From the NCBI RefSeq assembly GCF_010119205.1, contig NZ_WRXM01000002.1:240982-304981 (forward strand): a DNA stretch of 64,000 nucleotides, written 5' to 3'. This document shows positions 38,322 through 59,766 of this stretch, in pieces. How positions within the stretch are numbered: position 1 is the stretch's first letter; every line of letters starts with the position of its first letter. The position numbers and the translations under genes are program-made. The notes beneath the pieces are model-generated. The model saw only the letters and a list, made by a program, of their open reading frames with translations. It did not search any database and was not told the origin of the DNA. The stretch is from Haloarcula limicola (GTDB taxonomy: Archaea; Halobacteriota; Halobacteria; Halobacteriales; Haloarculaceae).

Positions 38322-39976
38322 CGGGTGTCGTCACCAGCATCGAGGACGTCATCGACCTCCAGCCCCACCGTATCGGCGCGCACACCATCTTCGACGAGGC
38401 TGGTCTTTCTCCGTATTGGGCGATGGTGAGTCAGTACGAGCCGGACCTCGACGAGCGAGAGGAGACGTTCACCTTCGACGGCGTCGAGTACGAAATCACC
38501 CGGTCGAATCACTGGGAGGGGAAAATCGAATCCCCACCATCGGCGACGTTCGACGGGGCGATGAACGAGTACAAGCTCGGTGTGTACGCTTCTGACGACC
38601 CACACAACGAACTGGGCGCTGACTTTACCTTCAGACCCGGTTTTCCCAAGGCATGCCACGTCGAGACCGGCGACCTCATCAGCGGCATGCCGACTGAGTG
38701 TCCCGAGTCTGTCCGTGTTCAGGTGGAGTCAACGAACCTCTCGCAGTTCGAAGTGCTCGGACTACTCCAGTCGCTTGCGTCGTACCTCTCTATCGACGCC
38801 GGCTACTTCGTCGAGGCTCACGAGTGGTCGCGCATCTACGCGTTAGAACTGTACGGGCGCATCGAGCGCGATACTGCGACAGGGAAGGTCGCCGGGAAGG
38901 GCGGCGTCCTCGAACACCTCTCTCAGTTCTCGAACGGGCGCGGTCGCGGTGAACACCACTGGGACCACGAGGAAATCAAGGCACACTACGAGGCTGTGGC
39001 GTTGTCTCCCGACAACTGGAAACGACTACTGCCCGATCAGACGCTTGCGAAGGGTCTGAAGTGCTATCAACCGAAGTGGGTCCGTTCGAAGACGTCAAGC
39101 GACGACCCGCTGTACCACCACAAAATCGAGTGTCAGTACTGGGCCGATTACTACCCCAGCGGCGAGACGCCGATTCAGTGGACTGGTTACGATACGGCCG
39201 TCGCGGAGTTCCGCGAGACCGTCGTGAACGCGCTCCACTGGGCTGGCGTCGATTTCTCGCCCGACTCGGACGTCTGGATTGAAGATCCGTACTTCGAGCC
39301 AGGGCAGGCTGACGACGCGATCGACGTGCGACCGAACCCGATGCCCGACCTCGAACAGCAAACCCGCGCCGACGCAGCCGACCAGCTCGCTGGTCCGGAG
39401 ACGAGCGAAGGTGCCTGGGACGTGCTCGTTGCGATGACCGATGGCGGCGGTCGGCACTACCAGGAGGTCGCCGATGAGGCCGGGAAATCGGCGTCGACGG
39501 TCTATCGCGCCGCCGAGCGCTTCGCCGATATCATCGAAGTCGACAACGGCATGGTTCGGTTCCGCGACGGCGTTGTCCGCGATCAAATCGAAGAGATCGC
39601 CGAGCGCTGGCAGGCGACGAAAGATACGACCATGGACTCGCTGAAGCGCGTGGCCGACCGAGCGTCGCCGTTCTCGCGCCGAGAAGACGGCGAGCCGAGC
39701 GCCCTGGAGCGCTGGGCGAATCGCCACGGCATCGTGGTCCACTCGACGACAGACCCGCTGAAGATGGAACTGAAGCGGCCGGTGAGCCTCCAGGAGATAC
39801 TGAAGATACTCCGCTCGGGGCTCGAAGCTGCCGAAGCCTCACCGCTCACGACGGACCGCTTCGAGAACGCGCTCATCGACTGGACCGGCCTGGACGGCGA
39901 CGTTCGAAAGGACCGTCGCGTCGTGAACAACGAACGGTTCCTCGGTAAGCACAACGTGGACCGGCCCATCTGGTAA
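38318..39976 (+). CDS. Large early-operon protein with a C-terminal helix-turn-helix (DUF7845-like)
   Basis: A 552-aa protein and last gene of the overlapping operon. Residues 1-330 form a mixed domain I recognise from haloarchaeal mobile elements without an assigned function (DUF7845, from memory). Around 355-430 lies a clear helix-turn-helix (HYQEVADEAGKSASTVYRAAERF), and the C-terminal 60 residues make another small domain ending NRPIW-like. I see no ATPase or HUH nuclease motif. Conservation next to zinc microproteins suggests replication control or transcription control of the element; this is inference. Confidence 0.7.
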   Translation: MTGVVTSIEDVIDLQPHRIGAHTIFDEAGLSPYWAMVSQYEPDLDEREETFTFDGVEYEITRSNHWEGKIESPPSATFDGAMNEYKLGVYASDDPHNELGADFTFRPGFPKACHVETGDLISGMPTECPESVRVQVESTNLSQFEVLGLLQSLASYLSIDAGYFVEAHEWSRIYALELYGRIERDTATGKVAGKGGVLEHLSQFSNGRGRGEHHWDHEEIKAHYEAVALSPDNWKRLLPDQTLAKGLKCYQPKWVRSKTSSDDPLYHHKIECQYWADYYPSGETPIQWTGYDTAVAEFRETVVNALHWAGVDFSPDSDVWIEDPYFEPGQADDAIDVRPNPMPDLEQQTRADAADQLAGPETSEGAWDVLVAMTDGGGRHYQEVADEAGKSASTVYRAAERFADIIEVDNGMVRFRDGVVRDQIEEIAERWQATKDTTMDSLKRVADRASPFSRREDGEPSALERWANRHGIVVHSTTDPLKMELKRPVSLQEILKILRSGLEAAEASPLTTDRFENALIDWTGLDGDVRKDRRVVNNERFLGKHNVDRPIW

Positions 39977-43556: not shown

Positions 43557-43847
43557 TCAATGACCGTGGGTTTCAGGGAGCCATATCTCTCTTATTGGAA
43601 TCGATGACGCAACTCCTGAGAGCCACGACCAAAGCGTTTCGAGGTTGAGCGAGACATCGACGCCTGGCACTAAGCCCGAGCTCAACGCAACGGCCACGAA
43701 CGCGAACACAGCGCCGATACGTACCCACGCGCCGACGCGAGTCAGCACCGACAGCACCTCCCGGCCGTGATAGAACATCACCGCCGCCGAGACGACTGTC
43801 ACTATCGAGCCCGAGACACCCAGCGCGTGCAACAGCTCACCGATCAT
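43557..43847 (-). CDS. Two-span membrane protein, last gene of the structural operon
   Basis: A 96-aa protein with two predicted spans (about residues 10-28 and 42-62) and a C-terminal amphipathic segment (ETLWSWLSGVASSIPI). Its ATG overlaps the stop of the 1309-aa surface protein (ATGA), so the two are coupled and may interact. Confidence 0.68.
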   Translation of the reverse strand: MIGELLHALGVSGSIVTVVSAAVMFYHGREVLSVLTRVGAWVRIGAVFAFVAVALSSGLVPGVDVSLNLETLWSWLSGVASSIPIREIWLPETHGH

Positions 43848-46800
43848 GGGCTGATCCGCTCTCCGTCGACTTCGATTATCGTCTTTTGGCCGACCACGAA
43901 CCGCTTGTACGCGTAGTACACTCCGAACCCGACCAGCGTTATCACGACCGCTGGCGCTATCTGAGCGAGGTTCTCCCCGAGCGGTCCGAGCACGATTCCC
44001 GGCTGGTACGACTCGCCGATCCCAACGACCACGACGCCCGCCGCGGCCGCCGTCCCGCCGAGCACGAACATCCGATCATCGACGAACCGTCGGAGGAGCA
44101 ACGCGACAGCGCCGACAGACAGCACGCCGATCGCTACCAGCACGACCGGACTCGAGAGCGGTCCGTCTTGCGTGTCGACCGGCCCGACCGACGACGGACC
44201 GATCCCGCCGCCAGCGGTCCCGCCCGACGTCGTTGAGTCGTTCACTTCCCGGATCACCAGCGTCTCCGAGGAGTCGTCGTCGACCAGCGTTACCGGAGAC
44301 TCCGCGGTCGCCGTGTCGCGGACCAGTCCCGCAGACTCCGAGAACAGCTCGTACTCGCGCCCGCTGACCGTCTGACCCCATACGTACGACACCTCGTCGT
44401 TCGGCGTCGAGCCCGGCGAGACGGCGAGTGTCGGCGACGCCCCGCCTTCTTCGACGCGAACGTGTACGTCACCGGACTCGATCCCGACCTCGAGGGGGAT
44501 CGTCTTCACCAGCGCCGTCGATCCGTTCGCCGCGTTCGGGAGAAACAGGTATTGCTCTCCCGACGCCGTCAGCTCGACATAGTCGTTCTCGCTGGTCCAG
44601 CTCTCGTTGACCGTTCGATGCACGTACGAGCCGCCGTCCGTCTCGCTCACCTCGATATAGAACCCCGGTCGCTGTTCGACCACGGTAAAGCGCGTATCGA
44701 GAGAGTTCCCCGCCACCGTCGGCTCGTCGATGCGAATCTCGCCGTTCCCGACGTTCACCTTCGACCCGTTCGCCCGCACTTCGACCGTGTCGCCAGCCTG
44801 GACATCGCCGAGCTCGGCGACGAGACGCGTCCCGTCGAACTGTCGGTCAGACTCCGGCACCGACGACCACGTTCCGCCGTTCACTCGCGTCTCGATCCCG
44901 CGCACGTCGACGACGTTCCCCGAGAACGGGATCGACAGCGTCGCGTTCGTCACACCGTCCGCGTAGGTCCGCGAGACGTTGTACCGCTCCGACCACGTCT
45001 CGCTCGAGAAATCGACCGACTGTTCGTCGAGCGCGTCGTGACGGTACTCGAGCCCGACCGCCGGGCTCGGCGCGTCCGCCGCGAGGTCGCCGCCGACGGA
45101 CACCGTGATGTCGTTTGTTCCCTCGCGGACCCAGCTCGGGTCAGTCGTCAGCGCCGCGGTCTCGCCGTCCGAGAGCGTCCCGCCGTACGACGTCGTGTTT
45201 CCGTTCACCGTCACCGTCACGTCCCGCGTCTCCGTCCGCTCGCGGTACGTCGTGTTGAGCTGGACGCTCGACCCGCTATCGGTTTGGACGTCGAGACTCG
45301 ACGAGGACAGCACCAGCTCGGAGACGGAGAACGTCTCGGTCGTCCCCGGCGAGATGATACCCGACCGTTTGACCTCGTACGTCCCATCCGAGTCGACGTC
45401 GATAAACGGGTCTTCGGTATGCGCGACGGCTGTCGCCTCGAGGAGATAGTCGACGCCCTCACCCGAGGACTCCGAGAACGCGATCGTCGACGAGCCCGAC
45501 GAGAGCGAGCCCGCCGCGATCGGCTCGGTCACGCTTGAGCCGCCACGGATCACGCCCGAGTAACTCGCCTCAGCGGTCCCGTCCCCGTCGACGTCGATCG
45601 ACGGAGACTCCGTCGCCGTGTGCTCGGTAAACGAGATATCGACATCTGTGCTCGAGGCCGCCGTCGACACGCTCGCGTACTGACTCCCCGAGGACAGCAT
45701 CAGACTCCCCGCGCTGTCCGAGGCCGTCTTGCCCGAGGACAGCACGCCCGAGTAGCTCGCGTCAGTGCTCCCGTCGTTGTCGATGTCGATCGACGGGTTC
45801 TCGGTCCCGGTTCGCTCCGTCCAGCTCATCGACCAGTCCGGTTGCGGTCCGAGCGAGGTCGTCGTCGAGACGCTGTTACTCCCGAGCGAGAGCCCGTCGA
45901 CAGCCTTCCCCGACGACGTCTCTCCCGAGCGGTAGACACCCGACCAGCTCGCTTCATCAGTTCCGTCCCCGTCGACATCGACGCTCGGGTTTTCTGTCGC
46001 GTAGTTAGCCGAGTAGTCGAGCGAGTAATCGAGCGACTCATAGGTCCCCGAGAAATCATAGGTCGTCGACGACCCCGAGAGCGAGACGCTCGTCGATCCC
46101 GACGACCCGGACGATAACGCCGAGACGGTCTTCGTCGAACTCTCGTCCGTTATATCGACCGTCGCGGAACTTTGCTCTAAGCGGATACCCTCGTCCGAGT
46201 AATCTTCAAACGCAAGTCGAGGCGAGTCATATGTTGTATCAATAGATTTGACGTGAAATCCGACCGTAACCGCACTCGCGCCACCCGTGTCGAAGTTAGA
46301 TATATCCGTCGTCTGATAATCGTCGGGGTGCGAATTCTCGTTGAACGAGACACCAGAAGCGACCTTAGTCCCGCTGAATGGGTCCCCAGTCCCCGCGACC
46401 ATGTATATGTCGACGGTCGCTGACATATCCTCTATTGCCACCCCATCGCCGTCCGAGGTCGAGGTTTCCGTATAGATCGATTGGACTTCCCGAGGCGGTC
46501 CCTCTATCGTCCATGTGTGATTCTGATTCTGACCATTGTCCACTAAGCGACGGATATACCCGGAGGTTTCCTCCGTCGAGGTCGTGAACTGAGGCGTGAC
46601 GGTCATGGTCCCGCCCGACGCGCCGATATTGCCCTGATAGCTAACCGTCTCCGAGGCCGATCCCGTGACGGACCCGCTCGCCGTCTCCGAAGACGACGAC
46701 TCCCGGCCAGTGATCGAGACGCTCTCGCTCGTCGGCTCGAGGTTCCCGCCGACGCTGACCGAGCCGCTCCCGGTCCCACTTCCCGAGCCCGCCGCCGTCG

Positions 46801-47773
46801 TCTCCCGACCCGTGAACGTCACCGAGACATCCGTCGCTGGTGCGTTCCCGCCGACCGTGTACGACGTCGTGTCCCCGTTGCTGAGTCCCGTTCCCGAGAC
46901 TGTCCGCGGCGACGTCGACTCCCGGCCCGTGAACGTCACCGTCGGGTTCTGTGCCGGTTGGTTCCCCGACAGCGTCACTCCGATCGACCCGCCGTCGCTG
47001 GCGGTCCCGCTCGTCGACCAGGCCGTCGTCGTCTCGACACCAGTCACCTCGAGCTCGGGATCGGCCGCACCGTTCGGTCCGAGCGGGTCACTGGTGCCCG
47101 CAATCGACACCGGCACCGAGCCGCCCGAACCGACCGTGCCCGACTGACTCTCCGTCTCGTACGTCGTCGAGCCCGTCAGATTGATTCGATAGTTGTCGAC
47201 CGCGTCGACGTTGTTGATATCGTACGAGTACGTCGACCCGTCGGCCGCCGGATCGCCGGTCACGACGACCTCCCCGCCGAACTCGACAGTGTTGCTCGAG
47301 AAGTGCGGGATGTCGAAGATATAGAGGTCGCCCTGTCGCTCGACCCGACTTTGCCACTCCGAGCCGTCACTGTTGTATCCGTACACGACCGCCGGACGGT
47401 AGCCGAGCGCCTCGCGCACCGCTGTCGCCGGGACCGCCACGGTCCGGCCCTCCGAGTGGACGTCGTCAGCGAACACCAGTACTAGATCCTCACCCGAGCC
47501 GAGTCGCGTCGCGTTCGGTCCCGTCGAGCGATCCCCGGTCGTGATCGACACCTCGAGCGTCTCCGCGTGAGAGCTCGTCATGACCGAGCCCTCGAGGTCG
47601 TCTTTCCCGACTGGTGCCGTGCCGTTCGTGAGGTCAGCCACGTTGCTGTTCGGGATCGTCACCAGTCCCGACTGTGCCGACGCTGTCCCAATCGCGCCAG
47701 CTGGAACGACGCCGACCAGCGCCGAAACTATCAGCAACGCGGCAAGTGCAACCCCGCGCGTCTGTTCGCTCAT
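43844..47773 (-). CDS. Giant repeat-rich surface protein with C-terminal membrane anchor
   Basis: A 1309-aa secreted protein and the largest product of the element. Signal peptide about 1-33. Residues 95-170 form a domain I have met in haloarchaeal virus-like surface proteins (VFADDVHSEGRTVAVPA). Next come four FTGRE-type repeats of about 37 residues (near 241, 278, 318, 352) rich in Ser/Thr/Gly. Four acidic repeats of about 65 residues follow (near 592, 658, 721, 787), each with PSxDVDGDG, a Ca2+-loop-like DxDxDG. The last 110 residues hold three membrane spans and a short tail. It is the obvious candidate for the particle spike/adhesin. S-layer-like or adhesin roles on the host are alternatives. 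Confidence 0.82.
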   Translation of the reverse strand: MSEQTRGVALAALLIVSALVGVVPAGAIGTASAQSGLVTIPNSNVADLTNGTAPVGKDDLEGSVMTSSHAETLEVSITTGDRSTGPNATRLGSGEDLVLVFADDVHSEGRTVAVPATAVREALGYRPAVVYGYNSDGSEWQSRVERQGDLYIFDIPHFSSNTVEFGGEVVVTGDPAADGSTYSYDINNVDAVDNYRINLTGSTTYETESQSGTVGSGGSVPVSIAGTSDPLGPNGAADPELEVTGVETTTAWSTSGTASDGGSIGVTLSGNQPAQNPTVTFTGRESTSPRTVSGTGLSNGDTTSYTVGGNAPATDVSVTFTGRETTAAGSGSGTGSGSVSVGGNLEPTSESVSITGRESSSSETASGSVTGSASETVSYQGNIGASGGTMTVTPQFTTSTEETSGYIRRLVDNGQNQNHTWTIEGPPREVQSIYTETSTSDGDGVAIEDMSATVDIYMVAGTGDPFSGTKVASGVSFNENSHPDDYQTTDISNFDTGGASAVTVGFHVKSIDTTYDSPRLAFEDYSDEGIRLEQSSATVDITDESSTKTVSALSSGSSGSTSVSLSGSSTTYDFSGTYESLDYSLDYSANYATENPSVDVDGDGTDEASWSGVYRSGETSSGKAVDGLSLGSNSVSTTTSLGPQPDWSMSWTERTGTENPSIDIDNDGSTDASYSGVLSSGKTASDSAGSLMLSSGSQYASVSTAASSTDVDISFTEHTATESPSIDVDGDGTAEASYSGVIRGGSSVTEPIAAGSLSSGSSTIAFSESSGEGVDYLLEATAVAHTEDPFIDVDSDGTYEVKRSGIISPGTTETFSVSELVLSSSSLDVQTDSGSSVQLNTTYRERTETRDVTVTVNGNTTSYGGTLSDGETAALTTDPSWVREGTNDITVSVGGDLAADAPSPAVGLEYRHDALDEQSVDFSSETWSERYNVSRTYADGVTNATLSIPFSGNVVDVRGIETRVNGGTWSSVPESDRQFDGTRLVAELGDVQAGDTVEVRANGSKVNVGNGEIRIDEPTVAGNSLDTRFTVVEQRPGFYIEVSETDGGSYVHRTVNESWTSENDYVELTASGEQYLFLPNAANGSTALVKTIPLEVGIESGDVHVRVEEGGASPTLAVSPGSTPNDEVSYVWGQTVSGREYELFSESAGLVRDTATAESPVTLVDDDSSETLVIREVNDSTTSGGTAGGGIGPSSVGPVDTQDGPLSSPVVLVAIGVLSVGAVALLLRRFVDDRMFVLGGTAAAAGVVVVGIGESYQPGIVLGPLGENLAQIAPAVVITLVGFGVYYAYKRFVVGQKTIIEVDGERISP

Positions 47774-47925
47774 CTGCGCGCACCTCCAAGATGCGCGCGC
47801 CCCCGGGGGACCCCACCGATCTTATCCGACACGCGCGCGTGCGTAGTCGGCAAATTCGCGCCGATCGCGGCCGACCGGGTCCGCTCGATTTTTTCTCGCT
47901 GAGGGGGGTTTTTTATCGAAAACAT
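47770..47925 (-). CDS. Basic 51-aa microprotein between ATPase and surface protein
   Basis: MFSIKNPPQREKIERTRSAA... is arginine-rich with no Cys. Its ATG lies 2 bp after the ATPase stop and its TGA overlaps the ATG of the surface protein, exactly the packing of the rest of the operon, which is the main evidence for it. Function unknown. Confidence 0.42.
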   Translation of the reverse strand: MFSIKNPPQREKIERTRSAAIGANLPTTHARVSDKIGGVPRGRAHLGGARR

Positions 47926-47927
47926 GA

Positions 47928-49079
47928 CTAATTCACCGTGATTTTGAGTTTGTAAGAGTGGGGCGTCGGGATGTCCGACCACGCGAACGCCTCGAAATTC
48001 GTCTCCGTATACATCAGCGCCTGACCGACGTCCATCATCGACGTCTGGTCCGTGTGCATTGGGACGCTCTCGAACCCGACGAGGTTGCCCGCTGTCGTCG
48101 GGTTCGCTCTCCCTGGCATCTGAATCCGCCAGCGAATCTTTCGACGAACGCCGTCCCAAATGTCGACCTCGTCGTGTCCGTACAGATTGAGCGTCAGTCC
48201 CGTTTTCCGCGCGTCTACCCACGAATCTTTGAGCATCTCCGCTTTCTGGTACGAACCGAACTGGTCCTTTTGAACTGACTGAGGGACGATGTCGCCGATC
48301 TCGTCGAGCGTGATAGTCGTCCAGTCGAGCGGTCCGTGCTCGACGCGAGCCAGGATGAAACCGAACCACCAGTGCGTTGCCGGGTCCTCCTCGTGGAACA
48401 GCTGACCGCGAGACGGCGCGTCGTACTGTTTCTCGTCAGACTCCTCGTACACCGCTTGACAGCCCCGGAGCGTCGGGTCGGGATAGACCACGTGGATCGA
48501 GCCCCGCTCGAGGATGTCGTGACACAGATGCACCGGGTCCTCGTAGTACACGACCTCCCGAACGATGCGATCGAGGTCGTCGACGTCGAGCGTCACCGAC
48601 GGCTCACTCGGGAGCTTGCTCTCGAGCCGGACCGAGACGTCGGCACCTTTCGGGAGACACAGCGTCACCCACGGAGCGAGCGGTAGCCACTCGCTCCTCG
48701 AGGAGGTCCCGCGCCACACGTGCATCGAGTTGTTGACCTCGATATCGCGAGTGGCGAAGTAACACCCTAGCGTCGACTTCCCCGAGCCCGGTTTCCCGGT
48801 CGCTAAGAAGTCCGTCCCGCCGACGCTCTCGCCCGTTGGCGGTTGCCAGTGCCGTTCGACGTAGTTCGGGATCACCTTGTCGAAGGCGAACTTCGAGCGG
48901 TCCCACGCCGGGATACCGAACTCTCGTCGGATGCTGTCAGCGTCCGTATGCCGACGCGTGTCCCCGGTCGCTTGCTGAGTGTTCCGTACCGGCGCGTGGA
49001 AGCTCGAGAGCGCCTCCTCGCGCTGTTCTTGCGACGTTTCCCCTCTTACCGAGCGTAGTCGATCCTGAATCGTGCTCAT
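47928..49079 (-). CDS. P-loop ATPase of the structural operon
   Basis: A 383-aa ATPase. Walker A is GKPGSGKST (residues 95-103) and Walker B TITLDEIGDI (Asp259-Glu260). The region between is large and unlike AAA+ replication proteins; no helicase or terminase-nuclease motifs are visible. The nearest analogues I know are the HerA/FtsK-like and VP8-type ATPases encoded beside membrane proteins in archaeal pleomorphic viruses. It probably powers DNA loading or particle assembly at the membrane. Its start overlaps the preceding gene by ATGA. Confidence 0.8.
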   Translation of the reverse strand: MSTIQDRLRSVRGETSQEQREEALSSFHAPVRNTQQATGDTRRHTDADSIRREFGIPAWDRSKFAFDKVIPNYVERHWQPPTGESVGGTDFLATGKPGSGKSTLGCYFATRDIEVNNSMHVWRGTSSRSEWLPLAPWVTLCLPKGADVSVRLESKLPSEPSVTLDVDDLDRIVREVVYYEDPVHLCHDILERGSIHVVYPDPTLRGCQAVYEESDEKQYDAPSRGQLFHEEDPATHWWFGFILARVEHGPLDWTTITLDEIGDIVPQSVQKDQFGSYQKAEMLKDSWVDARKTGLTLNLYGHDEVDIWDGVRRKIRWRIQMPGRANPTTAGNLVGFESVPMHTDQTSMMDVGQALMYTETNFEAFAWSDIPTPHSYKLKITVN

Positions 49080-49453
49080 AGCGTTGTGGGCGAACTTCGC
49101 GTCTGTTCCGCGTCGGGGAGCTCACCCGCTCTCCCCGCCATATCTCTCACTCCCCGATTCATCGCTGGCACCAGATGTACCGCCGCGAACAGCTCCCGCG
49201 CTGGTCGCATCTCTCGAGACGTCGATGTCAACAAACGCCGCGTCTGAGGCTCCGTGTGGGCGCGTGTGATAAGGTCCCCCTCGGACGTCCCCGACACCCA
49301 CTCGGGCTTGTCGACCGAGTTCACCTCCCCGTGCGTCGCCAGCTCGACCGTCTCTCCCCAGTCGATGATCGCCGACGAGTCCTCGAGCCCGGCGACGAGC
49401 TGAGTGATCGCCTCCTCTTGCCGACTGTCGAGCTCGTCGAGCGCTGGTCGCAT
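49076..49453 (-). CDS. Soluble helical protein, possibly the second half of a frameshifted gene
   Basis: A 125-aa helical, charged protein (MRPALDELDSRQEEAITQLVAGLED...). It begins in a different frame inside the preceding gene. In the 133-bp overlap this frame looks protein-like while the preceding one turns into an Arg/Ser-rich shadow. Joining the two by a -1 shift would give one protein of about 210 aa with a membrane span then this soluble domain. Either a separate gene or one half of a broken or recoded gene. Confidence 0.6.
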   Translation of the reverse strand: MRPALDELDSRQEEAITQLVAGLEDSSAIIDWGETVELATHGEVNSVDKPEWVSGTSEGDLITRAHTEPQTRRLLTSTSREMRPARELFAAVHLVPAMNRGVRDMAGRAGELPDAEQTRSSPTTL

Positions 49454-49713
49454 AGCGCCGTCCCGATCCCGATCGCCGCGATCACCAGCGTCCCGACGAT
49501 GTCGACCGCCGACATCGACGACGCCTCGAGCGCGAACTCCGTCGCGCCGTATGTGATCCAGCCGCCGACCCCGAGCGCCCCGAGGTTCCCGAGACACCAG
49601 ACGAGTAGCGAGCGGTCCTCGCGCACCGTCTCGACGAACGACCGCGAGCCCTCGAGGAACGACAGCCGTCGCTCGACCTCGTCGACGTCGTGATCGTCTC
49701 TAATTAGCGGCAC
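49321..49713 (-). CDS. Two-span membrane protein with suspicious C-terminus
   Basis: From GTG 49713: an N-terminal acidic region (DDHDVDEVERRLSFLEGS), then spans at about residues 35-55 and 70-88. From about residue 89 (STSSTVGKRRRSL...) the sequence becomes basic and low-complexity, the signature of reading the wrong frame of the next gene. The true product probably ends near 49455 or continues in the frame of 49076-49453. Confidence 0.55.
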   Translation of the reverse strand: MPLIRDDHDVDEVERRLSFLEGSRSFVETVREDRSLLVWCLGNLGALGVGGWITYGATEFALEASSMSAVDIVGTLVIAAIGIGTALCDQRSTSSTVGKRRRSLSSSPGSRTRRRSSTGERRSSWRRTGR

Positions 49714-50116
49714 CGTTTGCCCTCCACACGACGCCGATCGCCAGGATAGACACCGCGATCAGCCCGAACTGCCACGCTTTCACCGGGAGCGCTCCCGAGA
49801 GCCCGGCAGTTCCGACGAGTCCCGTCACGACACCGCCCGCGAGCACCGGGTCAGAACCCGCTATTCCCGCGATTTGCATCAGCGAGAACACCAGTTCTTG
49901 CCCAATCGTCGACATCACCGCGATTACTGCCAGCGCCAGTGAGCCACCCGCTCCGACGACGCCGCCCGTCGCCGACTGAGCGCGCTCGCCGACCGACTCG
50001 ATCGTGTCCCCGACCGTCTTCGACTGGTCCCGTTCGTCGAACGTCCAGTACGCGACGAGGAACAGCGCGAGGAATCCCGTGATGTACTTCCAGTTCTCGA
50101 GGAGGAGGTCTAACAC
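49700..50116 (-). CDS. Multi-span membrane protein
   Basis: A 138-aa protein starting GTG (LDLLLENWKYITGFLALFLVAYWTF). About four spans: near 10-26, 50-68, 88-105 and 115-133. It overlaps the next gene by 14 bp. No named family; the size and span number fit a small particle-membrane protein. Confidence 0.72.
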   Translation of the reverse strand: MLDLLLENWKYITGFLALFLVAYWTFDERDQSKTVGDTIESVGERAQSATGGVVGAGGSLALAVIAVMSTIGQELVFSLMQIAGIAGSDPVLAGGVVTGLVGTAGLSGALPVKAWQFGLIAVSILAIGVVWRANGAAN

Positions 50117-50168
50117 CGCTGTCCCCTCCGTTCGTTACCTCTCGATTCGTCCGTCTGAGTGTGTTCTA

Positions 50169-50459
50169 TCATGAGTCTACCGTTTCTGACAGGTTCTTGA
50201 GCGCGCGATACAACTTCGACGCCGCGTAAATCGCGCCGAGCGCCAGCGCGACGGGTTTCAACAGCTCCGCCGGGATCGCGTCAACCTCCGGCGCGATCGT
50301 GAACCCGAAGATGCTCGCCACTGTGAACAGCGAGCCCGACGACGTCGCCAGCCAGTGCCCGAGCTCGAGGAGCAACGGGAACTTCACGATCGACATCCCC
50401 GCCCCGACGACCGCGGTCGCCAGCGACGCCGGATGTCGAAGGGACTCCGAGAGCGTCAT
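50169..50459 (-). CDS. Three-span membrane protein
   Basis: A 96-aa, almost wholly hydrophobic protein (MTLSESLRHPASLATAVVGAGM...), spans near 10-30, 38-56 and 68-82, ending in a charged helix (LYRALKNLSETVDS). The ATG overlaps the stop of the gene before it as ATGA. The open frame extends upstream only as a shadow. Confidence 0.7.
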   Translation of the reverse strand: MTLSESLRHPASLATAVVGAGMSIVKFPLLLELGHWLATSSGSLFTVASIFGFTIAPEVDAIPAELLKPVALALGAIYAASKLYRALKNLSETVDS

Positions 50460-50899
50460 TTGCCCTCCAACAGCGTTTGTATCCCCGATATGACCGGAAC
50501 CGAGTCCGCCAGCGCCCGGACCACACGAACACCGAGCGCGAGGAGGACCACCGTCACGATCACCAGCACCGGACCGGCCGCCGGTCCGAGTATCTCGACG
50601 AGCGCCGCGATCATCGATCGCATCCAGTTGATAACCGCGTCCCCGTAGGTCGCCAGCGATAGACCGCGCTGGCGCTGGAACTGTGAGACGGTGTCCGGGA
50701 GGAGCGCCGCCCCGAACTGTCCCGCCGAGAACGTGATCGCTACCTGGAACTGGTCGGTGATCCACGCGATCCCGTCGGCGACGGAGAACGCCACTCCGAC
50801 CGCCGCGCCGATCACGAACTGGACGATTCGGCGCATCACGAACGTCTCCGGCCCCTCCTTAGCGAGCGGTTTGAGCTTGCTAATCCAGTCCTCAGCCAT
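50456..50899 (-). CDS. Multi-span membrane protein
   Basis: A 147-aa protein (MAEDWISKLKPLAKEGPETFVMRR...) with an amphipathic N-terminal helix and about three spans (near 25-45, 55-72, 105-130). The N-terminus resembles that of the 145-aa gene at 51349 (MADNKWINKLNDIAS), hinting that the two are paralogues. It overlaps both neighbours. Confidence 0.72.
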   Translation of the reverse strand: MAEDWISKLKPLAKEGPETFVMRRIVQFVIGAAVGVAFSVADGIAWITDQFQVAITFSAGQFGAALLPDTVSQFQRQRGLSLATYGDAVINWMRSMIAALVEILGPAAGPVLVIVTVVLLALGVRVVRALADSVPVISGIQTLLEGK

Positions 50900-51248
50900 A
50901 CAGCGACCACCCTTTGACGACGCCGTACGCGAGGAGCACGACCACGATCGTTGCAACGGGGAACGCGATCACGTCGAACGCTTCGACGAACTCCGCTGTC
51001 TCGCCCCACGCCTCCGACCAGAAAAAGCCCGGGAGCGTGTAGATGCCCGTCACCGTGCGCAGGAACTCGACGTACTGCGACAACGGCTCGATTACCAGAG
51101 ACGACCACACAGCGGAGATGAACTCCGCGTACTCCGTCCCGAACGCCGTCGAGACGATGCCCGCCATTACCGCCAGCACCGAACCGACGTTGATCCCGGT
51201 CCCGTTCGACGTCGTCAGCGAGTCGTACAGCGTCGAGTCTCCGCTCAT
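50892..51248 (-). CDS. Two-to-three-span membrane protein
   Basis: A 118-aa protein (MSGDSTLYDSLTTSNGTG...) with hydrophobic segments near 20-38, 45-60 and 92-112 and a short basic/aromatic end (VVKGWSLYG). Overlaps the next gene by 8 bp. Unknown family. Confidence 0.7.
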   Translation of the reverse strand: MSGDSTLYDSLTTSNGTGINVGSVLAVMAGIVSTAFGTEYAEFISAVWSSLVIEPLSQYVEFLRTVTGIYTLPGFFWSEAWGETAEFVEAFDVIAFPVATIVVVLLAYGVVKGWSLYG

Positions 51249-51346
51249 GTAGTTACCCCCGGAGACACGCACTCGACCCCCACGACGCCGACAGCGGGCG
51301 CTCTCCGAGCAACGGACGGCCGACGGCCGCTCCCGTTGCCCGACAT
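51245..51346 (-). CDS. Candidate 33-aa microprotein
   Basis: ATG 51346 follows the stop of the 145-aa gene by 2 bp, with a TGAGG ribosome site overlapping that stop, and its own TGA overlaps the next ATG (ATGA). The product (MSGNGSGRRPSVARRAP...) is basic and has no recognised domain. It fills the only 100-bp gap in this part of the operon. Confidence 0.35.
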   Translation of the reverse strand: MSGNGSGRRPSVARRAPAVGVVGVECVSPGVTT

Positions 51347-51348
51347 CC

Positions 51349-51786
51349 TCAGTCGCCCTCCTCCTCGGTGCCGATAAACGGGACGTCGAACGGGACGCCC
51401 GGCAGGAAGTTCCCCGTCGCCGGGTTCTCCCGTGCTCGAGCGACCACGATCGCCGCCAGCACGACGACACCGACGGCGATCGGGAACGTCAGCGGACCGA
51501 ACTGAGCCCACACGCCTTGCGACAGCGACTGTGCGGACTCCGTTGCACCGGCTGAGAGAATCTGACCCGGTCCCTCGAGGAGTCCGGAGGTCAGCTCGCC
51601 GACGCCCGCCGAGAACCCGTCGAACGTCGCTATCGGGACGTTGAACGCCGCCCCGATCGCGTTCGCCGCCGACGTGAAGAACGCGATCACCGGCAGTAGC
51701 ATCGCCTTCGGAACCACGTTCGTCAGCGACGAGCCCTCTGTCGACGCGATATCGTTCAGTTTGTTGATCCACTTGTTGTCTGCCAT
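51349..51786 (-). CDS. Membrane protein with amphipathic N-terminus
   Basis: A 145-aa protein (MADNKWINKLNDIAS...) with spans near 28-48 and 98-115 and a Pro/acidic end (FLPGVPFDVPFIGTEEEGD). Its start abuts the stop of the secreted 474-aa protein by one base, suggesting coupling. Possibly paralogous to 50456-50899. Confidence 0.72.
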   Translation of the reverse strand: MADNKWINKLNDIASTEGSSLTNVVPKAMLLPVIAFFTSAANAIGAAFNVPIATFDGFSAGVGELTSGLLEGPGQILSAGATESAQSLSQGVWAQFGPLTFPIAVGVVVLAAIVVARARENPATGNFLPGVPFDVPFIGTEEEGD

Positions 51787-53210
51787 TATTCACCACCGCG
51801 GAGCTTCACGTAGCCGAGCGACAGAGTCGCTATGGCGCCCGTGATCCACGTCCAGATGGAACCGAAGATACCGCCGTCACTGACCGGCGCGGCACCGCCC
51901 GCCGGGGACGTGTCCTGAAGCATCCGAACCTCGTCGTCTTGCAGAACGAGGAGCGTGTTCACGACGTAGGACTGACCCGGCTGAATCGACGCGTCCAGAA
52001 CATGCGTCGCGCCGTTCTCGTTGTACGTCGACGAGAGGTCCGACCAGCTCGAGATGTTCTCGAAGTCCGTGTCTCCGGTCCCCTCAGCCATGCGCGCGAC
52101 CTTGTAGCGCTCGCTGATGAACTTCTGTTCGGTCCGGAGCTCGAGGTTGTGATGCGAGATGTCGATCGCCGTCGGCACCGTGATCCGCTGGTAGAGGTCG
52201 AGCTTGCTCGGGTAGCCAGCGTAGTTGTCCGCACTGGTGTAGTTCGCCGAGATGTCGCTCGCCGGTTGGTCGCTCGCTCGGTACTCGATTCCGAGAACGC
52301 CGAGGTCCTCGATCGTCGCGTCGTCGAACATCGACGGGAGCGTGTCGAGACTCGTCAGTCCGACCTCGCCGGGACTGTCGACCTCGGTGAAGCTCGTCGC
52401 CTCGCCGTTCTCGTATGTCTCGCCGAGTTCGATCGTCGACTTGCGCTCGACGTCGAGTCCGGTCAGCGTCACCGACGCGTCAGCGTCCGAGACGACTATT
52501 TCCACGCTCTCGATGTTGTCGAAGGTGCCGTCTCCGGACCCCTCGGTCGGGAGGTCAACAAGCTTCTGCTGGAAGACGTAGCCGTTGCCCTGTCCAGTCG
52601 CCGCGACGTGCGTCGAGTCCGTCGACGCCGAGCTGTTGATCTCCGCCGCCTTGTAGTCGCCGTCCGAGTCGACCGCGCGAATCGTCACGTCCGCCGCGCT
52701 GTCGAGCTGGTCGACGTTGAAGACAGTGAACAGAACTCGCTTGCTCGGGTCCGAGTCGATCGAGACTCGGTCGTACGTCGCCGTTCCGCTCGAGCCCGAG
52801 GCAATCCCCGAGGTCGAGACGGTCAGCGACGTGCTGGTCGAGCTGACCGACGCGCTCGAGGTCGTCCAGTTGCCCGCGTCGAGCGCCGAGCCGTTCTCAG
52901 CCGAGCGCGGGAACTTCCGGAGGTCCTCGTCGTCGATCTTGTCGTACCGGACCATCACCGTCTCGTTGAGCGAACTGTTCTGAGTGGCGTTCAGCGAGCG
53001 GAGCTCGCCGTTATCGCCGTAGTACTGCAGGGGCGAGTCCATCGCCGTCATGTTGTGAGCGGCGACGTCGACGCGCTCCTCGTAGATGTACGCGTCCGGA
53101 CCTTCCTCGTAGTTGATAGTGCTGTTCGATGCACTGACGACGTCCGTCAGTCCTCCTCCGAGGACCAGCGCCACCAGCGCGAACGATAGAATTGTCTGTC
53201 TGTTTATCAT
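51786..53210 (-). CDS. Secreted, membrane-anchored glycoprotein-like protein (candidate second spike)
   Basis: A 474-aa protein. Signal peptide about 1-27 (ILSFALVALVLGGGLTDVVSA), then a long beta-rich ectodomain with many NxS/T sequons (for example NSTI, NMTA, NATQ, NSSL, NETV, NWTT) and Ser/Thr stretches. The C-terminal span is GSIWTWITGAIATLSLGYV with a short basic tail. The layout, one N-terminal signal plus one C-terminal anchor at about 500 aa, matches spike proteins of pleolipoviruses, though I cannot show homology by eye. Confidence 0.76.
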   Translation of the reverse strand: MINRQTILSFALVALVLGGGLTDVVSASNSTINYEEGPDAYIYEERVDVAAHNMTAMDSPLQYYGDNGELRSLNATQNSSLNETVMVRYDKIDDEDLRKFPRSAENGSALDAGNWTTSSASVSSTSTSLTVSTSGIASGSSGTATYDRVSIDSDPSKRVLFTVFNVDQLDSAADVTIRAVDSDGDYKAAEINSSASTDSTHVAATGQGNGYVFQQKLVDLPTEGSGDGTFDNIESVEIVVSDADASVTLTGLDVERKSTIELGETYENGEATSFTEVDSPGEVGLTSLDTLPSMFDDATIEDLGVLGIEYRASDQPASDISANYTSADNYAGYPSKLDLYQRITVPTAIDISHHNLELRTEQKFISERYKVARMAEGTGDTDFENISSWSDLSSTYNENGATHVLDASIQPGQSYVVNTLLVLQDDEVRMLQDTSPAGGAAPVSDGGIFGSIWTWITGAIATLSLGYVKLRGGE

Positions 53211-53211
53211 C

Positions 53212-53355
53212 TTAGGATGTCAGCGGTTCCGGATCGCTACCCGTGATTTCCGTGCTGTTCTCCTCGCTCTCCTCGACCGGACATGTCTCCCGAAATTGCT
53301 TGAGATACTGGGCGAACGCCTTACTGACGACCAATCCTCGAGGACCTCGAGTCAC
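53212..53355 (-). CDS. 47-aa microprotein of the structural operon
   Basis: GTG 53355 overlaps the preceding stop as GTGA and its stop lies 1 bp before the ATG of the 474-aa protein. The product VTRGPRGLVVSKAFAQYLKQ... has one amphipathic helix, one Cys and an acidic tail. Real by packing; function unknown. Confidence 0.45.
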   Translation of the reverse strand: MTRGPRGLVVSKAFAQYLKQFRETCPVEESEENSTEITGSDPEPLTS

Positions 53356-53618
53356 ACATCGACCTCCTGGCCGCCGTCAGTTCGAGCCGCTCCCTCGCTC
53401 CCGGTGTTCGTCATGCTGGGCTGCGTAGACAGATCGGCGTCCTCACGTGCTCGCTCGACGAGTCGAGAGACGAGCATCTGGCCGCCGATGTAGAGCGTGC
53501 CGAGCACGAGCGGAGCCGCCAGCAGGACAGCCGACAGGCCAGCCCAGTTGGCCGTTGCGAGGACGGCCGTGATGGACGTGTAGCCGGCGAGATGCACGAA
53601 GCGATCTCGCTCGGTCAC
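53352..53618 (-). CDS. Two-span membrane protein, second gene of the structural operon
   Basis: An 88-aa protein from GTG 53618, preceded by a clear GGAGGTG ribosome site that decides the start. Hydrophobic segments near 8-25 and 28-48, then a charged C-terminus. The upstream extension to 53687 is a shadow of the preceding gene. Confidence 0.62.
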   Translation of the reverse strand: MTERDRFVHLAGYTSITAVLATANWAGLSAVLLAAPLVLGTLYIGGQMLVSRLVERAREDADLSTQPSMTNTGSEGAARTDGGQEVDV

Positions 53619-53794
53619 GCGCCACCTCCGGCCAGCAACGAGGCGCTCAGGTCGCGGCTCGCTCCGCCCGCTTCTCGGCGGTAGCACGCGCGGCGGCGCT
53701 CGTCCATGTTTCTGTAGTCGATTCGCCAGTTCCGATGCGCGGTCTCGTCCGCGCTGTCCGTACGTTCTTCCTCACCGGACAGTTCGTGGTCCAT
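53615..53794 (-). CDS. 59-aa soluble microprotein, first gene of the structural operon
   Basis: From ATG 53794: MDHELSGEEERTDSADETAH..., acidic then Arg-rich (MDERRRACYRREAGG). Its TGA overlaps the GTG of the next gene. It is the first frame after the operon promoter (TATA near 53848-53860) and has a 53-bp leader with a hairpin. Confidence 0.5.
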   Translation of the reverse strand: MDHELSGEEERTDSADETAHRNWRIDYRNMDERRRACYRREAGGASRDLSASLLAGGGA

Positions 53795-53808
53795 GGGTAG
53801 GGGTGCTG

Positions 53809-53860
53809 CCCGCGGTGTTTCCGCGGGTTAGAACCCCGTCTATGGCCTTTATTTTATACT
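53809..53860 (-). promoter_or_regulatory. Promoter and leader hairpin of the structural operon
   Basis: On the minus strand AGTATAAAATAAA (53848-53860) is a strong TATA box. Between it and the first ATG lies a perfect 7-bp inverted repeat CCCGCGG-tgttt-CCGCGGG (53809-53827), placed to act as an operator or leader hairpin. Confidence 0.6.
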
Positions 53861-53878: not shown

Positions 53879-53898
53879 TATGTACACGATATGTCACC
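53879..53898. promoter_or_regulatory. Direct repeats in the divergent control region
   Basis: TATGTACAC and TATGTCACC start 11 bp apart, about one helical turn, between the structural-operon promoter and the TATA box (GTTTAATA, 53908-53915) of the AbrB-like gene. Candidate binding site for that regulator. Confidence 0.4.
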
Positions 53899-53942
53899 GT
53901 GAGAAAAGTTTAATACACAAGCCGTGGGCGGAGCGTGTGACG

Positions 53943-54200
53943 ATGCAGAAATTGCAAAATCACGATGGGTCAGGTGTAGTGACGATTCCGAAAAACGACC
54001 TCGAACGGGATGGACTACTCGACGAAGGCGGCAATCCGGTCAGCGATACTCACATCGCAGTTGAACGACTCGACGAGCGAGTGTACGTAGTGCGGATGTG
54101 TGATGGAAATATTCCCGAATTAGCCGACTGTGACACGATTCGACGTATTGCCGCCGAACGGATTCTCGAAGAAGACAACCTCAGACTGAGAAAAAAGTAG
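53943..54200 (+). CDS. AbrB/SpoVT-like regulator diverging from the structural operon
   Basis: An 85-aa protein with MQKLQNHDGSGVVTIPKNDLERDGL, the swapped-hairpin AbrB/MazE fold signature, and a C-terminal helix (TIRRIAAERILEEDN). Such proteins bind DNA as dimers. Its place, 148 bp from and divergent to the first structural gene, makes it the best candidate to control the particle genes. The ATG at 53943 follows its TATA by about 30 bp. Confidence 0.72.
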   Translation: MQKLQNHDGSGVVTIPKNDLERDGLLDEGGNPVSDTHIAVERLDERVYVVRMCDGNIPELADCDTIRRIAAERILEEDNLRLRKK

Positions 54201-55926: not shown

Positions 55927-56922
55927 ATGATAAAAGATGCTACAGCTCTCCGTCACGGGGCTGTTCCGCAGGATTTGTACCATCGAGATGGACAGATTGA
56001 CCACATCTCCTCGATACTCGACCCCTCGAGCTTTGAATGGGCAGAGGACGTCTGTATCTTCGGCCCTTCTGGGGCTGGGAAAACGACGATAGCGAAGTAC
56101 GTCCTGCGCGAACTTGAACGAGAGATATTGGATATTCGCTGGGGCTACGTCAACTGTATGGCCGACAACACGGCCGCGAGCGCGATTTACAAACTCGTCC
56201 GTGATCTCGGACTCGGGGCCGACCTCCGCGAAGGTGTTTCGACATCAAGGATGCTTGATCGACTCAAACAGTTCGACGGCCAGATTGTCGCGGTGCTTGA
56301 CGAGGTCTACTCCGTCGAGGAGCGTGCTGTGCTGGCGCTCGAAACGGTGCCGAATGTCTCGCTGGTCGCTATCACGATTGACCAGGACGAGTGGTTCACG
56401 GCGCTCAGCGCACAGGCGAAGTCGCGGATGCAGTGTGCAGCAACGGTACGACTGGAAAAGTACCATCATCACGAACTGGTCGATATCCTCAATAGCCGCG
56501 TTTCACACGGTCTCAGGACCTCTCGGGTTGATAGCGAGGCGGTCGAGTACATAGCGGACCTCGCCGCTGGGAACGCCCGAAAAGCGATAGCGACCCTACG
56601 TCATGCCGCTGTCCATGTTGGGGATGGTCATACCGAGCAGTTGGACGTCAGCGTGGTCGAGGCGATCTCGGACGACGTTGACGGCGAGCTCCGAGATAGG
56701 AACGTCCGCTCGCTTGGATCACATCACCGCCTACTACTCCGTCTCATCGAAAACGCGGGCAGTATTGACGCCGGAACGCTTCACGCCCGCTACGATGATA
56801 GCGCTCAGGACCCGAAAAGCCGCTCTACACGGCACAGATATCTGAATGATCTTCAGTACCGAGACCTCGTTGAGATTGATGGCGATGGCCGTGGTTCGAC
56901 GTACCATGCACTCCGCAAGTAA
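55927..56922 (+). CDS. Orc1/Cdc6 replication initiator of the element
   Basis: A 331-aa AAA+ initiator: Walker A GPSGAGKTT (residues 46-54), Walker B VAVLDEV (Asp125-Glu126), an AGNARKAIATL sensor-2 arginine region near 215, and a C-terminal winged helix (about 255-331; RHRYLNDLQYRDLVEIDGDGRG). It is shorter than chromosomal Orc1/Cdc6, as usual for virus and plasmid copies. It indicates that the element can replicate outside the chromosome. Confidence 0.86.
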   Translation: MIKDATALRHGAVPQDLYHRDGQIDHISSILDPSSFEWAEDVCIFGPSGAGKTTIAKYVLRELEREILDIRWGYVNCMADNTAASAIYKLVRDLGLGADLREGVSTSRMLDRLKQFDGQIVAVLDEVYSVEERAVLALETVPNVSLVAITIDQDEWFTALSAQAKSRMQCAATVRLEKYHHHELVDILNSRVSHGLRTSRVDSEAVEYIADLAAGNARKAIATLRHAAVHVGDGHTEQLDVSVVEAISDDVDGELRDRNVRSLGSHHRLLLRLIENAGSIDAGTLHARYDDSAQDPKSRSTRHRYLNDLQYRDLVEIDGDGRGSTYHALRK

Positions 56923-57078: not shown

Positions 57079-59766
57079 TCAGCTCATCCGTCTTCGGAAG
57101 TTGGCAGTGATGATGTCGTTTTCAGTTTTGGTTATCTCCTCGGACAGATCCTCAAAGTCAACATCCGCGAACTCATCGTCATCGAATGCGATCAGAGCAC
57201 ATAGCTCTTCGACGAGGTGAGCTCTATTCTTCGTGACAGTATCGTATGTCCACTCATCTGCTAGGTCACTCATCTCCTTTCTCTGCTCCGCCAACTTGTC
57301 ATTAATCTCTTCGCAGAGTTCGTCGGCCGAGTCGGCCTCACTATCAAAGCGATCCCGAATATTTGTCCAGTCTACCGCTTCCTCTTGCTCATCTCCATCG
57401 GCTTCATTAAGCGCGTCCAGTTCGTTACGCCCTGCTTCTAACTGAAGGTAGTTCTCGAGTGAACCAGTATACGGGAAGAAAAGATTCTCACAGATGTAAG
57501 TACTCGTGGTCATCTCACAGAAATCGGTCGTAGCTTTGTAGGTACGGGCTTTCTCGTCGAAGAGTTTGTTTCCTATGCTCAGATTCCCAGTATAATGTAA
57601 TAGTGTCAGGTTTCCAATATCGTTCTGGTAATGTTCAGCGATTTCTTCCAGCGTGTCGTCAGCCTCATCGTCTATGAACGACTCGACCATGTCTCCAACT
57701 TCTGTGCCTTCATGTGTTTTGAAGAATTTCTTGAACCACACGTACTCGTCGTCTGCGCCAGATCGTATCGGCGATTGTGGGAAGATATGTTCGAGGTGGA
57801 CGATATCTTCGTTTAAATTCAATCGACGCAGGACCATGTCAGAGTCACTCCCGGAGAAATTCTCAGAGACGATTTTCCGGAGTATTTGCTTACCCCACTG
57901 TTTTCGCCATTTGGACTGGTAAAGTGCTTCAACAAGCGACTCGCCGACAGCGCTCGGGTCATCCGTTTCGATATCGGTAAGTGACTCGATTACGTCGCCA
58001 TTAATTCCTCTCTTATGATACTCCGTAATAGCTGATGAGTAAGCACGGTCTCTGGTGTGGGTATCCATCGAGGCAAATTTTCGTATCGCCATCGACTCAA
58101 TGGCCCGAAGAAGGTCCTTCAATCGCTGCTGCTCGGTAATATCATTTTCAACGATATCGTGATAGAACCCGAGTACCAATGGTTCCCAGATGCTGGTATC
58201 GGCTTTCTGAAGTCTAGCAATGATCCGATCAGCCTCATACTCGATCGCCTCATTTCCGCTGTCACCTAGGTCTATGCCTTCATTATTGATGTCTGTGATG
58301 TCGTTGTAATACTTCGAATATCGGCTCAACTCATCAAGAAAGTCCTTGGCATCACGCGTTGACGTGAGGTGACTTTCAAGCCTCGCGTCAGAACTCTCGC
58401 TGGGATTCTGAACGAATGCCTCAAGAAGGTGGTCTCTCAATTCTCCCCGCGAGTTAGCCTCACCCTTTGTAACGAAGTACGTACGGAGGAATTTGATGAT
58501 ACGGTCGTTCCCGAACTCGTCGACAATATTTTCCCACTTGTCTACGTAGGCATCTCGTTCAGGATCACCTCGGAAGCACGCAACAATTCGGGTACGCATA
58601 ACATCTGCTTTCTTAAGTTCCATACCCCGATCATTTAGAATCTCGAATATCCTCATTAGAAGTCGGGGCTGATTATTCTGGACTTCGAAGTATCCGACGC
58701 GGAAAGAGTGGAGAATGTAGTTCGTAACATTAATCAGAGAATATATTTTTTCTTTATCGCTGTCGTATTCAGCAAGCCGATTAGCAATTTTGTTATCAAA
58801 GTACAGATAGCACTCGATAAAGTTTTGATTTTCGTCGGATAATTCGACTTTGTTCTGTAGCAACTCTCGAGCGAGGTCGCCATTTACATTAATTTCAGGT
58901 GGCTCGTCTGCTTCAGACCCAGATTCGTCTTCCGTTTCATCGACGTTACTTTCTTGGCCTTCCTCTACGAGCAGTCCATTATCATTGACGCTTCCTGCTT
59001 GCGCATTCGTTAGATTTGGGCGACCAGTTTCCCCATCAGGGTAGAATTCATCATTATCAACAGCACGAAGATACGTTTCCGCGTCAATATCAAATGCATC
59101 CAGGAATTCACTAACTCTGATTGCGTCATATTTCGTGTTCCCATGAACCCGGTCACATTTGACGAGATATTTTAGCAATTCCTCCTTACCAGTCAACATT
59201 GCAGTAAAGAACGACTCATGATGGCGATTCGGGATAAGTGAGACGTTTTTCTCTGTTCCAACACCGGTATCCCGGTAGACCAATTCTTCGACATTCGTGA
59301 CTTCGCCTCCCAGATCTGCATAAAGATCTCCCTCATTTAGATGGTGGTGCATGTGATCTGCGATGATTTTGAAGAGCACCGTGAGGGTCGTGATCCGCTG
59401 TTGGCCGTCAATGATGTCGTATAGCTCTTCGATATCATCTTCCTCTATGCTATCGATGTCTTGCTCCGCGAAAAACATCGAACCGAAGAAAATATCGGTA
59501 ATTGTTGGCTCTGCCGAGCTACCGTTCGCTGTGTATAGTTTGTCTATTTCTTCCCATAATTCCTCCCACTGCTCTTCTTCCCACTGATAACCTCGCTGGT
59601 AATCTGGAATCCGGAAGTTCCGCTCGAAGAAGGCATTGAGAGTTTTTTTCTCGATCGTAATCGCTCGATCAGTAATATTATTGACAAGGGCGTGAACAGG
59701 AATCTGGTTTTCGCCACTTGCGCTCCCTGTGAACTTGATGATTTTCTCTCCAATTGGGGATGGCAC
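57079..59766 (-). CDS. Single-chain GmrSD-like (DUF262 + DUF1524) type IV restriction protein
   Basis: An 895-aa protein. The DUF262 ParB-like domain shows IPDYQRGYQW (53-62), FFGSMFF and the nuclease/NTP motif IIDGQQRITTL (118-128). The C-terminal DUF1524 HNH-type domain has HLEHIFPQSP (from residue 657) and IGNLTLLHYTGNLSIGNKLF (about 717-736). GmrS and GmrD are fused here, as in many relatives. The family cuts modified phage DNA, so it probably excludes competing viruses. A TATA (ATAAAAGG, 59791-59798) about 25 bp before GTG 59766 suggests a leaderless message. Confidence 0.87.
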   Translation of the reverse strand: MPSPIGEKIIKFTGSASGENQIPVHALVNNITDRAITIEKKTLNAFFERNFRIPDYQRGYQWEEEQWEELWEEIDKLYTANGSSAEPTITDIFFGSMFFAEQDIDSIEEDDIEELYDIIDGQQRITTLTVLFKIIADHMHHHLNEGDLYADLGGEVTNVEELVYRDTGVGTEKNVSLIPNRHHESFFTAMLTGKEELLKYLVKCDRVHGNTKYDAIRVSEFLDAFDIDAETYLRAVDNDEFYPDGETGRPNLTNAQAGSVNDNGLLVEEGQESNVDETEDESGSEADEPPEINVNGDLARELLQNKVELSDENQNFIECYLYFDNKIANRLAEYDSDKEKIYSLINVTNYILHSFRVGYFEVQNNQPRLLMRIFEILNDRGMELKKADVMRTRIVACFRGDPERDAYVDKWENIVDEFGNDRIIKFLRTYFVTKGEANSRGELRDHLLEAFVQNPSESSDARLESHLTSTRDAKDFLDELSRYSKYYNDITDINNEGIDLGDSGNEAIEYEADRIIARLQKADTSIWEPLVLGFYHDIVENDITEQQRLKDLLRAIESMAIRKFASMDTHTRDRAYSSAITEYHKRGINGDVIESLTDIETDDPSAVGESLVEALYQSKWRKQWGKQILRKIVSENFSGSDSDMVLRRLNLNEDIVHLEHIFPQSPIRSGADDEYVWFKKFFKTHEGTEVGDMVESFIDDEADDTLEEIAEHYQNDIGNLTLLHYTGNLSIGNKLFDEKARTYKATTDFCEMTTSTYICENLFFPYTGSLENYLQLEAGRNELDALNEADGDEQEEAVDWTNIRDRFDSEADSADELCEEINDKLAEQRKEMSDLADEWTYDTVTKNRAHLVEELCALIAFDDDEFADVDFEDLSEEITKTENDIITANFRRRMS

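Follow-up and report, generated by a model that had tools for sequence, protein, structure and literature searches.

A membrane-protein, spike, and ATPase gene module in a tRNA-integrated element of Haloarcula limicola and related haloarchaea

Can a dense run of genes for small membrane proteins, large surface proteins, and a single ATPase, none of them recognizable as a capsid gene, build a particle? The question is raised by a locus of Haloarcula limicola that we analyzed within a 64,000-nucleotide stretch of contig NZ_WRXM01000002.1 (the window, whose coordinates are used throughout). The run, here called the module, extends leftward from 53794 to 43557 and is one part of an integrated element of approximately 27 kb that also carries an integrase, a replication protein, and cargo genes. 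A first-pass annotation, made from the letters alone, had called it a complete membrane-particle system. We found the gene content and order to be conserved among haloarchaea and the window copy to be incomplete. On balance, we favor the reading that the window holds a defective provirus-like element, integrated at tRNA-Pro, from a haloarchaeal group, as yet undescribed, whose particles contain membrane and are spindle-like or vesicle-like. That the genes form a conserved module of membrane, spike, and ATPase proteins within a mobile element was confirmed, whereas the formation of particles and the part that each protein plays in it are what we infer.

Conservation and content of the module

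A synteny search across haloarchaeal genomes, proposed with the first annotation, recovered the same gene order in 47 other loci, among which L003 (Haladaptatus sp. DYF46) and L079, with contigs of identical length (2,014,062), appear to be one place, leaving 46 distinct ones. The counts below refer to the window and the 47 fetched loci (48 in total), and protein families carry F numbers. Ten genes follow one another in a conserved order: F5, a pair of proteins with two transmembrane (TM) segments, F8, F6, F4, F3, F2, the ATPase (F1), and a very large spike. F0, F1, F2, and one of the spike families F9 and F12 were present in all 48 loci, and three loci had a 195-aa protein in the place of F5. 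Of 146 genomes of the family, 31 had a relative of the ATPase, as did 61 of the 392 genomes sampled from the order. The module is a real unit under selection, with pairwise dN/dS ratios below 1 between orthologous copies of its genes (approximately 0.1–0.7, mostly 0.1–0.5); together with codon statistics and the 47 further syntenic loci, these ratios back the coding status of the genes.

In the window, open reading frame (ORF) lists, start-site context, and codon statistics gave about 12 intact genes and two remnants, fewer than the approximately 15 genes first counted, as two ORFs of 130 and 125 aa proved to be scars (see below). The single P-loop ATPase of 383 aa and seven intact proteins of 88–147 aa with hydrophobic segments were found as described, and the near-universal overlap of stops and starts held at eight of 12 junctions, the other four having gaps of 52–154 nt. 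The conserved surface protein F5 (51786–53210, on the minus strand, as are all module genes; 45 loci) has 474 aa, a signal peptide, and a C-terminal hydrophobic helix, in agreement with the anchor assigned to it; the 1,309-aa F9 (43844–47773), for which the same layout had been proposed, has the signal peptide and ends in three TM segments. F9 is the large spike or adhesin of the window and is without a known domain. Its four repeats of approximately 64 aa with DxDxDG loops and its two clear TGRE repeats suggest a calcium-binding stalk.

Directly after F5 lies F0 (51349–51786), a 145-aa protein with two TM segments and an amphipathic middle that often occurs as a tandem pair; the second F0 position is held in the window by F24 (50892–51248; 118 aa, two TM segments, six loci). 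F8 (50456–50899; 147 aa, two TM segments, 47 loci), the membrane protein F6 (50169–50459; 96 aa, 43 loci), and the multi-TM protein F4 (49700–50116; 138 aa, 40 loci) follow, then the two remnants and the ATPase (47928–49079), and, beyond the spike, the multi-TM protein F11 (43557–43847; 96 aa, 28 loci). At the other end, the run begins with F29 (53615–53794), a soluble protein of 59 aa with 14 relatives in phmmer searches, and F10 (53352–53618), a membrane protein of 88 aa with relatives down to E 3e-33. Upstream of them, a putative leader (53795–53860, minus strand) contains a TATA-like TATAAAATAAA and then the inverted repeat CCCGCGG-n-CCGCGGG, and beside this promoter region lies F14 (53880–54200, plus strand), a small divergent protein whose family is found in 21 loci. 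A promoter and terminator scan with bacterial models, ill-suited to archaea, gave output at chance level, and an Rfam scan gave no match.

The ATPase was also seen swapped, with part of F2, between otherwise similar modules (L039 and L060, L038 and L058, L052 and L053). F5 and F3 are 84–92% identical in the first two pairs, the ATPase only 31–33%, and two divergent ATPase lineages seem to have been exchanged as a unit. Stand-alone copies outside any module occur at L004, L006 (pNG100), L046, and L047, in the last two together with an 86-aa piece from the C terminus of F2; such copies are either remnants or a sign that the ATPase is also used separately.

Integration at tRNA-Pro and loss of F3 from the window copy

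The element is bounded by direct repeats, identical over 13 nt or over 16 nt with one mismatch. The left repeat, attL (CTCGGCGGTCCCACTC, 36804–36819, plus strand), is the 3′ end of the tRNA-Pro (GGG) gene that served as the integration target (36746–36817, plus strand, ARAGORN); attR (CTCGGCGGTCCCATTC, 63749–63764, plus strand) lies just past the gene of a 398-aa tyrosine integrase with a SAM-like N-terminal domain (62487–63683, plus strand; Pfam PF02899, E 1.6e-9). An integrase and att repeats at a tRNA 3′ end identify a tRNA-integrated mobile element. Related modules of the same genus adjoin the corresponding tRNA-Pro in genomes G008 (L059) and G024 (L057), and we set the element borders by the att repeats, the integrase, and this parallel, as no clean empty site was found. 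At least two further species of the genus apparently have related elements at this tRNA gene (G008:C12:890473-890742; G024:C32:162407). On the 31-kb contig G030:C7, a check for circularity found no terminal overlap.

The replication protein of the element is a 552-aa rolling-circle protein of the Rep-Arvir family (DUF7845; 38318–39976, plus strand; PF25227, E 3e-89, 300 bits against a cut-off of 27). Rep-Arvir proteins lie close to the module in 39 of the 48 loci, and F19, of approximately 635 aa, occurs in the module region of seven, one copy being annotated as MCM. The element also encodes a PadR regulator, a Cdc6-like AAA protein with a lid domain (55927–56922, plus strand), the family of which recurs in pNG100 (L006) and L004, and, as cargo, a GmrSD-type restriction enzyme. 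The last is an 895-aa defense protein (type IV restriction, Orf5-SspE-like) in a low-GC stretch of the element (57079–59766, minus strand).

In the relatives, two genes sit between F4 and the ATPase: F3, of approximately 570 aa, with a signal peptide, an extracellular part, four to six TM segments, and an acidic tail, and the two-repeat F2 of approximately 260 aa (range, 240–300 aa). The window is the sole module locus without F3 (47 of 48 loci have it), and a search of the rest of the host genome did not find it. Residues 1–88 of the 130-aa ORF (49713–49321) match a 141-aa two-TM protein of L003 (7019–7444) in position, length, and hydrophobicity, and the residues beyond read out of frame into F2; the frame-by-frame comparison thus leaves a 5′ remnant of the two-TM gene at 49454–49713. 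The 125-aa ORF (49453–49076) is the frame of what survives of F2, its second repeat and C terminus (49076–49453 by alignment with relatives). Read against the relatives, the two ORFs are out-of-frame deletion scars and not native genes. The approximate junction falls at 49450–49458, and gene lengths put the loss at approximately 2.3 kb relative to L003, comprising all of F3 (approximately 1.65 kb), the N-terminal half of F2, and the end of the two-TM gene. Because of these losses, the window copy alone is probably unable to complete the proposed particle-forming process; the label of a complete system does not fit it and may describe its intact relatives.

Kinships of the ATPase, the spike, and the replication protein

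Among the module proteins of the window, the ATPase alone had a convincing match in PHROGs (phrog_22963, E 2e-13). Its profile matched the ATPase of plasmid pTN2 (gene 8) over the whole domain (E 8.7e-27, hhalign 99.1%), and pTN2 gene 8 is a homologue of PAV1 ORF375 (PMC3543421). Compared in this indirect way, through pTN2 gene 8 and PHROG 22963, the module ATPase is of the PAV1 ORF375 type, a family in common with PAV1 and the thermococcal spindle-shaped viruses (candidate family Osirisviridae) and with pTN2-like plasmids. Elsewhere in the phylum, its relatives often lie in clusters: a short helical protein is encoded immediately upstream, accompanied by small TM proteins and by large surface proteins with TM anchors. 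At L107, outside Halobacteria, the ATPase adjoins a 121-aa two-TM protein matching a virion-structural PHROG (E 0.0011). The other module families matched nothing in these clusters except for a weak spike-domain similarity, and F5, F3, and F0 are not homologous to proteins of the related nonhalophile loci L106–L111. L107 and L109, from other orders of the phylum, have the PAV1-type ATPase near multi-TM proteins with hydrophobic hairpins like those of spindle-virus coat proteins and are likely unannotated spindle-virus elements.

The spike slot holds either F9, as in the window, or the unrelated F12. The latter has LamG and CarboxypepD_reg domains and matches ORF27 of the His1 virus (Halspiviridae; E 1.8e-44, hhalign 99.6%), a homologue with a signal peptide and the same LamG-like and CarboxypepD_reg composition. 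As the match falls in common secreted domains, it supports a receptor-binding role more than common descent. His1 otherwise has a linear genome and a B-type polymerase, and none of the module proteins is related to VP21, its coat protein.

In overall layout, the PAV1-like viruses come closest, PAV1 itself being compared by description. Osirisviridae are described as having many TM proteins, a pair of surface proteins of which the second can be replaced, and a replication locus exchangeable between DUF7845 and MCM (PMC12934983); DUF7845 Rep is found in PAV1 and MCM in its relatives (PMC12934983, PMC13107129). The module resembles the PAV1/pTN2 group in the helical protein just upstream of the ATPase and in two large membrane-anchored surface proteins, one of them replaceable; a two-helix coat protein like that of the group was not recognizable in the module from sequence, and F2 shows no detectable homology to pTN2 gene 7.

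The Rep-Arvir family occurs in pleomorphic and lemon-shaped viruses (PMC13107129), and the window element has it in common with HRPV-3 (E 6.9e-63) and with LSV-48N, a lemon-shaped Haloferax virus (E 5.9e-69). LSV-48N is likewise an integrating haloarchaeal element with many small and two large proteins (PMC12714723), and Rep-Arvir is its sole clear homologue: F0, F5, F3, F8, F4, and F6 had no significant match, the spike match was weak (E 1.4e-6), and that of the ATPase was confined to Walker A. Profiles of F5, F0, F8, F6, F4, and F3 found nothing convincing in HRPV-1, HRPV-3, His2, SSV1, His1, and LSV-48N. Neither SSV1 VP3 nor His1 VP21 had a sequence or profile match in the module, and no virion PHROG was matched; the universal F0 does have two TM segments.

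Further haloarchaeal and thermococcal elements were compared by description. Halfvol2, a 12.3-kb tRNA-integrated provirus of Haloferax volcanii with ten TM proteins, is considered to represent a novel group with a lipid envelope; it was recovered from virus stocks (PMC7911831). It is similar to the module in its integration and its richness in TM proteins and differs in being only 12.3 kb; PHROG 22963 of the ATPase had no match in the Hfx. volcanii control genome. The pR1SE/apHPV vesicles and the pT26-2 core module likewise combine a cluster of membrane and surface proteins and one ATPase in an integrating plasmid-like element. The pR1SE core includes an S8 peptidase (ORF7) and a VirB4/HerA-type ORF25 (PMC10818511), unlike the module, which had no Pfam match to peptidase S8 or HerA/VirB4. 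The pT26-2 module consists of different proteins with a HerA/VirB4-type ATPase (PMC6972569).

Particle, transfer apparatus, or retained surface system

Searches of the module proteins against Pfam, PHROGs, and NCBIfam found no HK97 or jelly-roll capsid, portal, or terminase, no pilus or secretion family, and no VirB4, VirD4, relaxase, or pilin, in agreement with the first-pass annotation, which had described the module as lacking capsid and packaging genes and had named capsid, portal, terminase, secretion, or pilus homology as grounds for rejecting its reading. The ten window proteins scanned had no match in Pfam, and F5 and the ATPase none in NCBIfam and PADLOC; one spike relative of the LamG/CarboxypepD_reg type had a weak fimbrial-protein match far below the cut-off. 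Solved-structure searches with profiles of F1, F2, and F5 gave no informative match, and AlphaFold2 models of the ATPase and F5, from alignments of the window and L003 only, had pLDDT values of 31 and 35 and no usable fold. We found no description of the module in the open-access papers searched. A tailed or icosahedral virus, a conjugative element (none of the VirB4, VirD4, and relaxase families typical of conjugative and type IV secretion elements), and membership in the pleolipoviruses (no significant spike, VP3-like, or VP8 match) were rejected on gene content.

Among the remaining readings, we regard as improbable a retained host-surface or superinfection-exclusion system, in which the loss of F3 is domestication and not decay. 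The remaining module genes of the window are intact despite the loss of F3 and half of F2, as that reading would have it, but F3 and F2 are retained in the 47 other loci, and the integrase and Rep are intact, as they should be if an otherwise mobile element had recently suffered a deletion. About as improbable, and disfavored, is the reading in which the element is a pleolipovirus that has diverged, or a plasmid-vesicle element like pR1SE, with F5 as spike, F0 as the VP3-like protein, and F1 as the VP8-like ATPase. The plan is similar in that small membrane proteins and an ATPase come after an anchored spike of approximately 500 aa; pleolipo-proviruses also integrate at tRNA-Pro (PMC7911831), and Rep-Arvir is common to HRPV-3. 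The kinship with pleolipoviruses first suggested was nevertheless not supported by the profile searches of HRPV-1, HRPV-3, and His2 reported above. In hhalign comparisons, run on a subset, F5 and F9 reached a best probability of 9% with the spikes of these viruses; in the ATPase block, F1 against HRPV-1 VP8 gave 6.9% and F3 against ORF6 25% over 36 residues, with no significant profile match. The S8 peptidase and VirB4/HerA-type ORF25 of pR1SE were not seen in the module either.

The main rival, which we hold to be rather unlikely, is a contact-dependent apparatus of the cell envelope for DNA transfer or secretion, with F3, F4, and F8 as the channel, F1 and F2 as its power source, F5 and F9 as adhesins, and no free particle. 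A lone ATPase amid many TM proteins and adhesins would suit such an apparatus, as would the signal peptide, extracellular part, TM segments, and acidic tail of F3; the analogous core module of pT26-2 has been interpreted as a putative secretion system (PMC6972569), and the ATPase relative at L107 is weakly similar to Zot and terminase. None of the VirB4, VirD4, relaxase, and pilin families was found, however, and the replacement of the spike by unrelated proteins and the links to PAV1 and His1 are more virus-like.

The provirus-like reading, which we prefer, has its own difficulties. No spindle-virus coat protein or other capsid signature is recognizable in any module protein, and searches of 50,697 phage records and IMG/VR scans with the ATPase and F5, as single proteins and profiles, turned up no relative. 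In a search for CRISPR spacers, short matches to the module in eight genomes all lay outside repeat arrays, and no spacer against the module was verified. The bearer of the related ATPase, pTN2, is a plasmid with no known particle, and the LamG and CarboxypepD_reg domains common to F12 and His1 are widespread secreted domains. A search with the joined flanks of the element yielded only a partial match (75%) across the junction, in G027. Nonetheless, the PAV1/pTN2-type ATPase and the His1-type alternative spike point to the spindle-virus side.

Under the provirus-like reading, the element would excise by its integrase and replicate by the Rep-Arvir protein, or by MCM in sister elements. F5 and the small two-TM proteins (the F0 pair, F8, F6, F4, and F11) would accumulate in the membrane of the host and there build a particle that contains lipid; the PAV1-type ATPase, with F2 and the TM protein F3, may load DNA into this particle or power its budding. 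The large exchangeable spike, F9 or the LamG-type F12, would then attach to the next host. Its presence in every locus, its usual duplication, its two TM segments, and its place immediately after F5 make F0 the foremost coat-protein candidate. More tentatively, the module may represent a new haloarchaeal virus family, building its membrane particle from F0, F5, and F3 with no known or recognizable capsid ancestor. The earlier suggestion of a new family holds within the phage records, the IMG/VR scans, and the pleolipovirus genomes, where no match was found.

The comparison yields a list of candidate structural genes (F0, F5, F3, F2, F1, and the spike), and the damaged window copy offers a natural case of loss. 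If the module builds particles, it represents a common and unrecognized type of haloarchaeal virus or infectious plasmid, overlooked for lack of a match between its structural proteins and any capsid family. A single ATPase would then tie together spindle-shaped viruses, thermococcal plasmids, and haloarchaeal elements.

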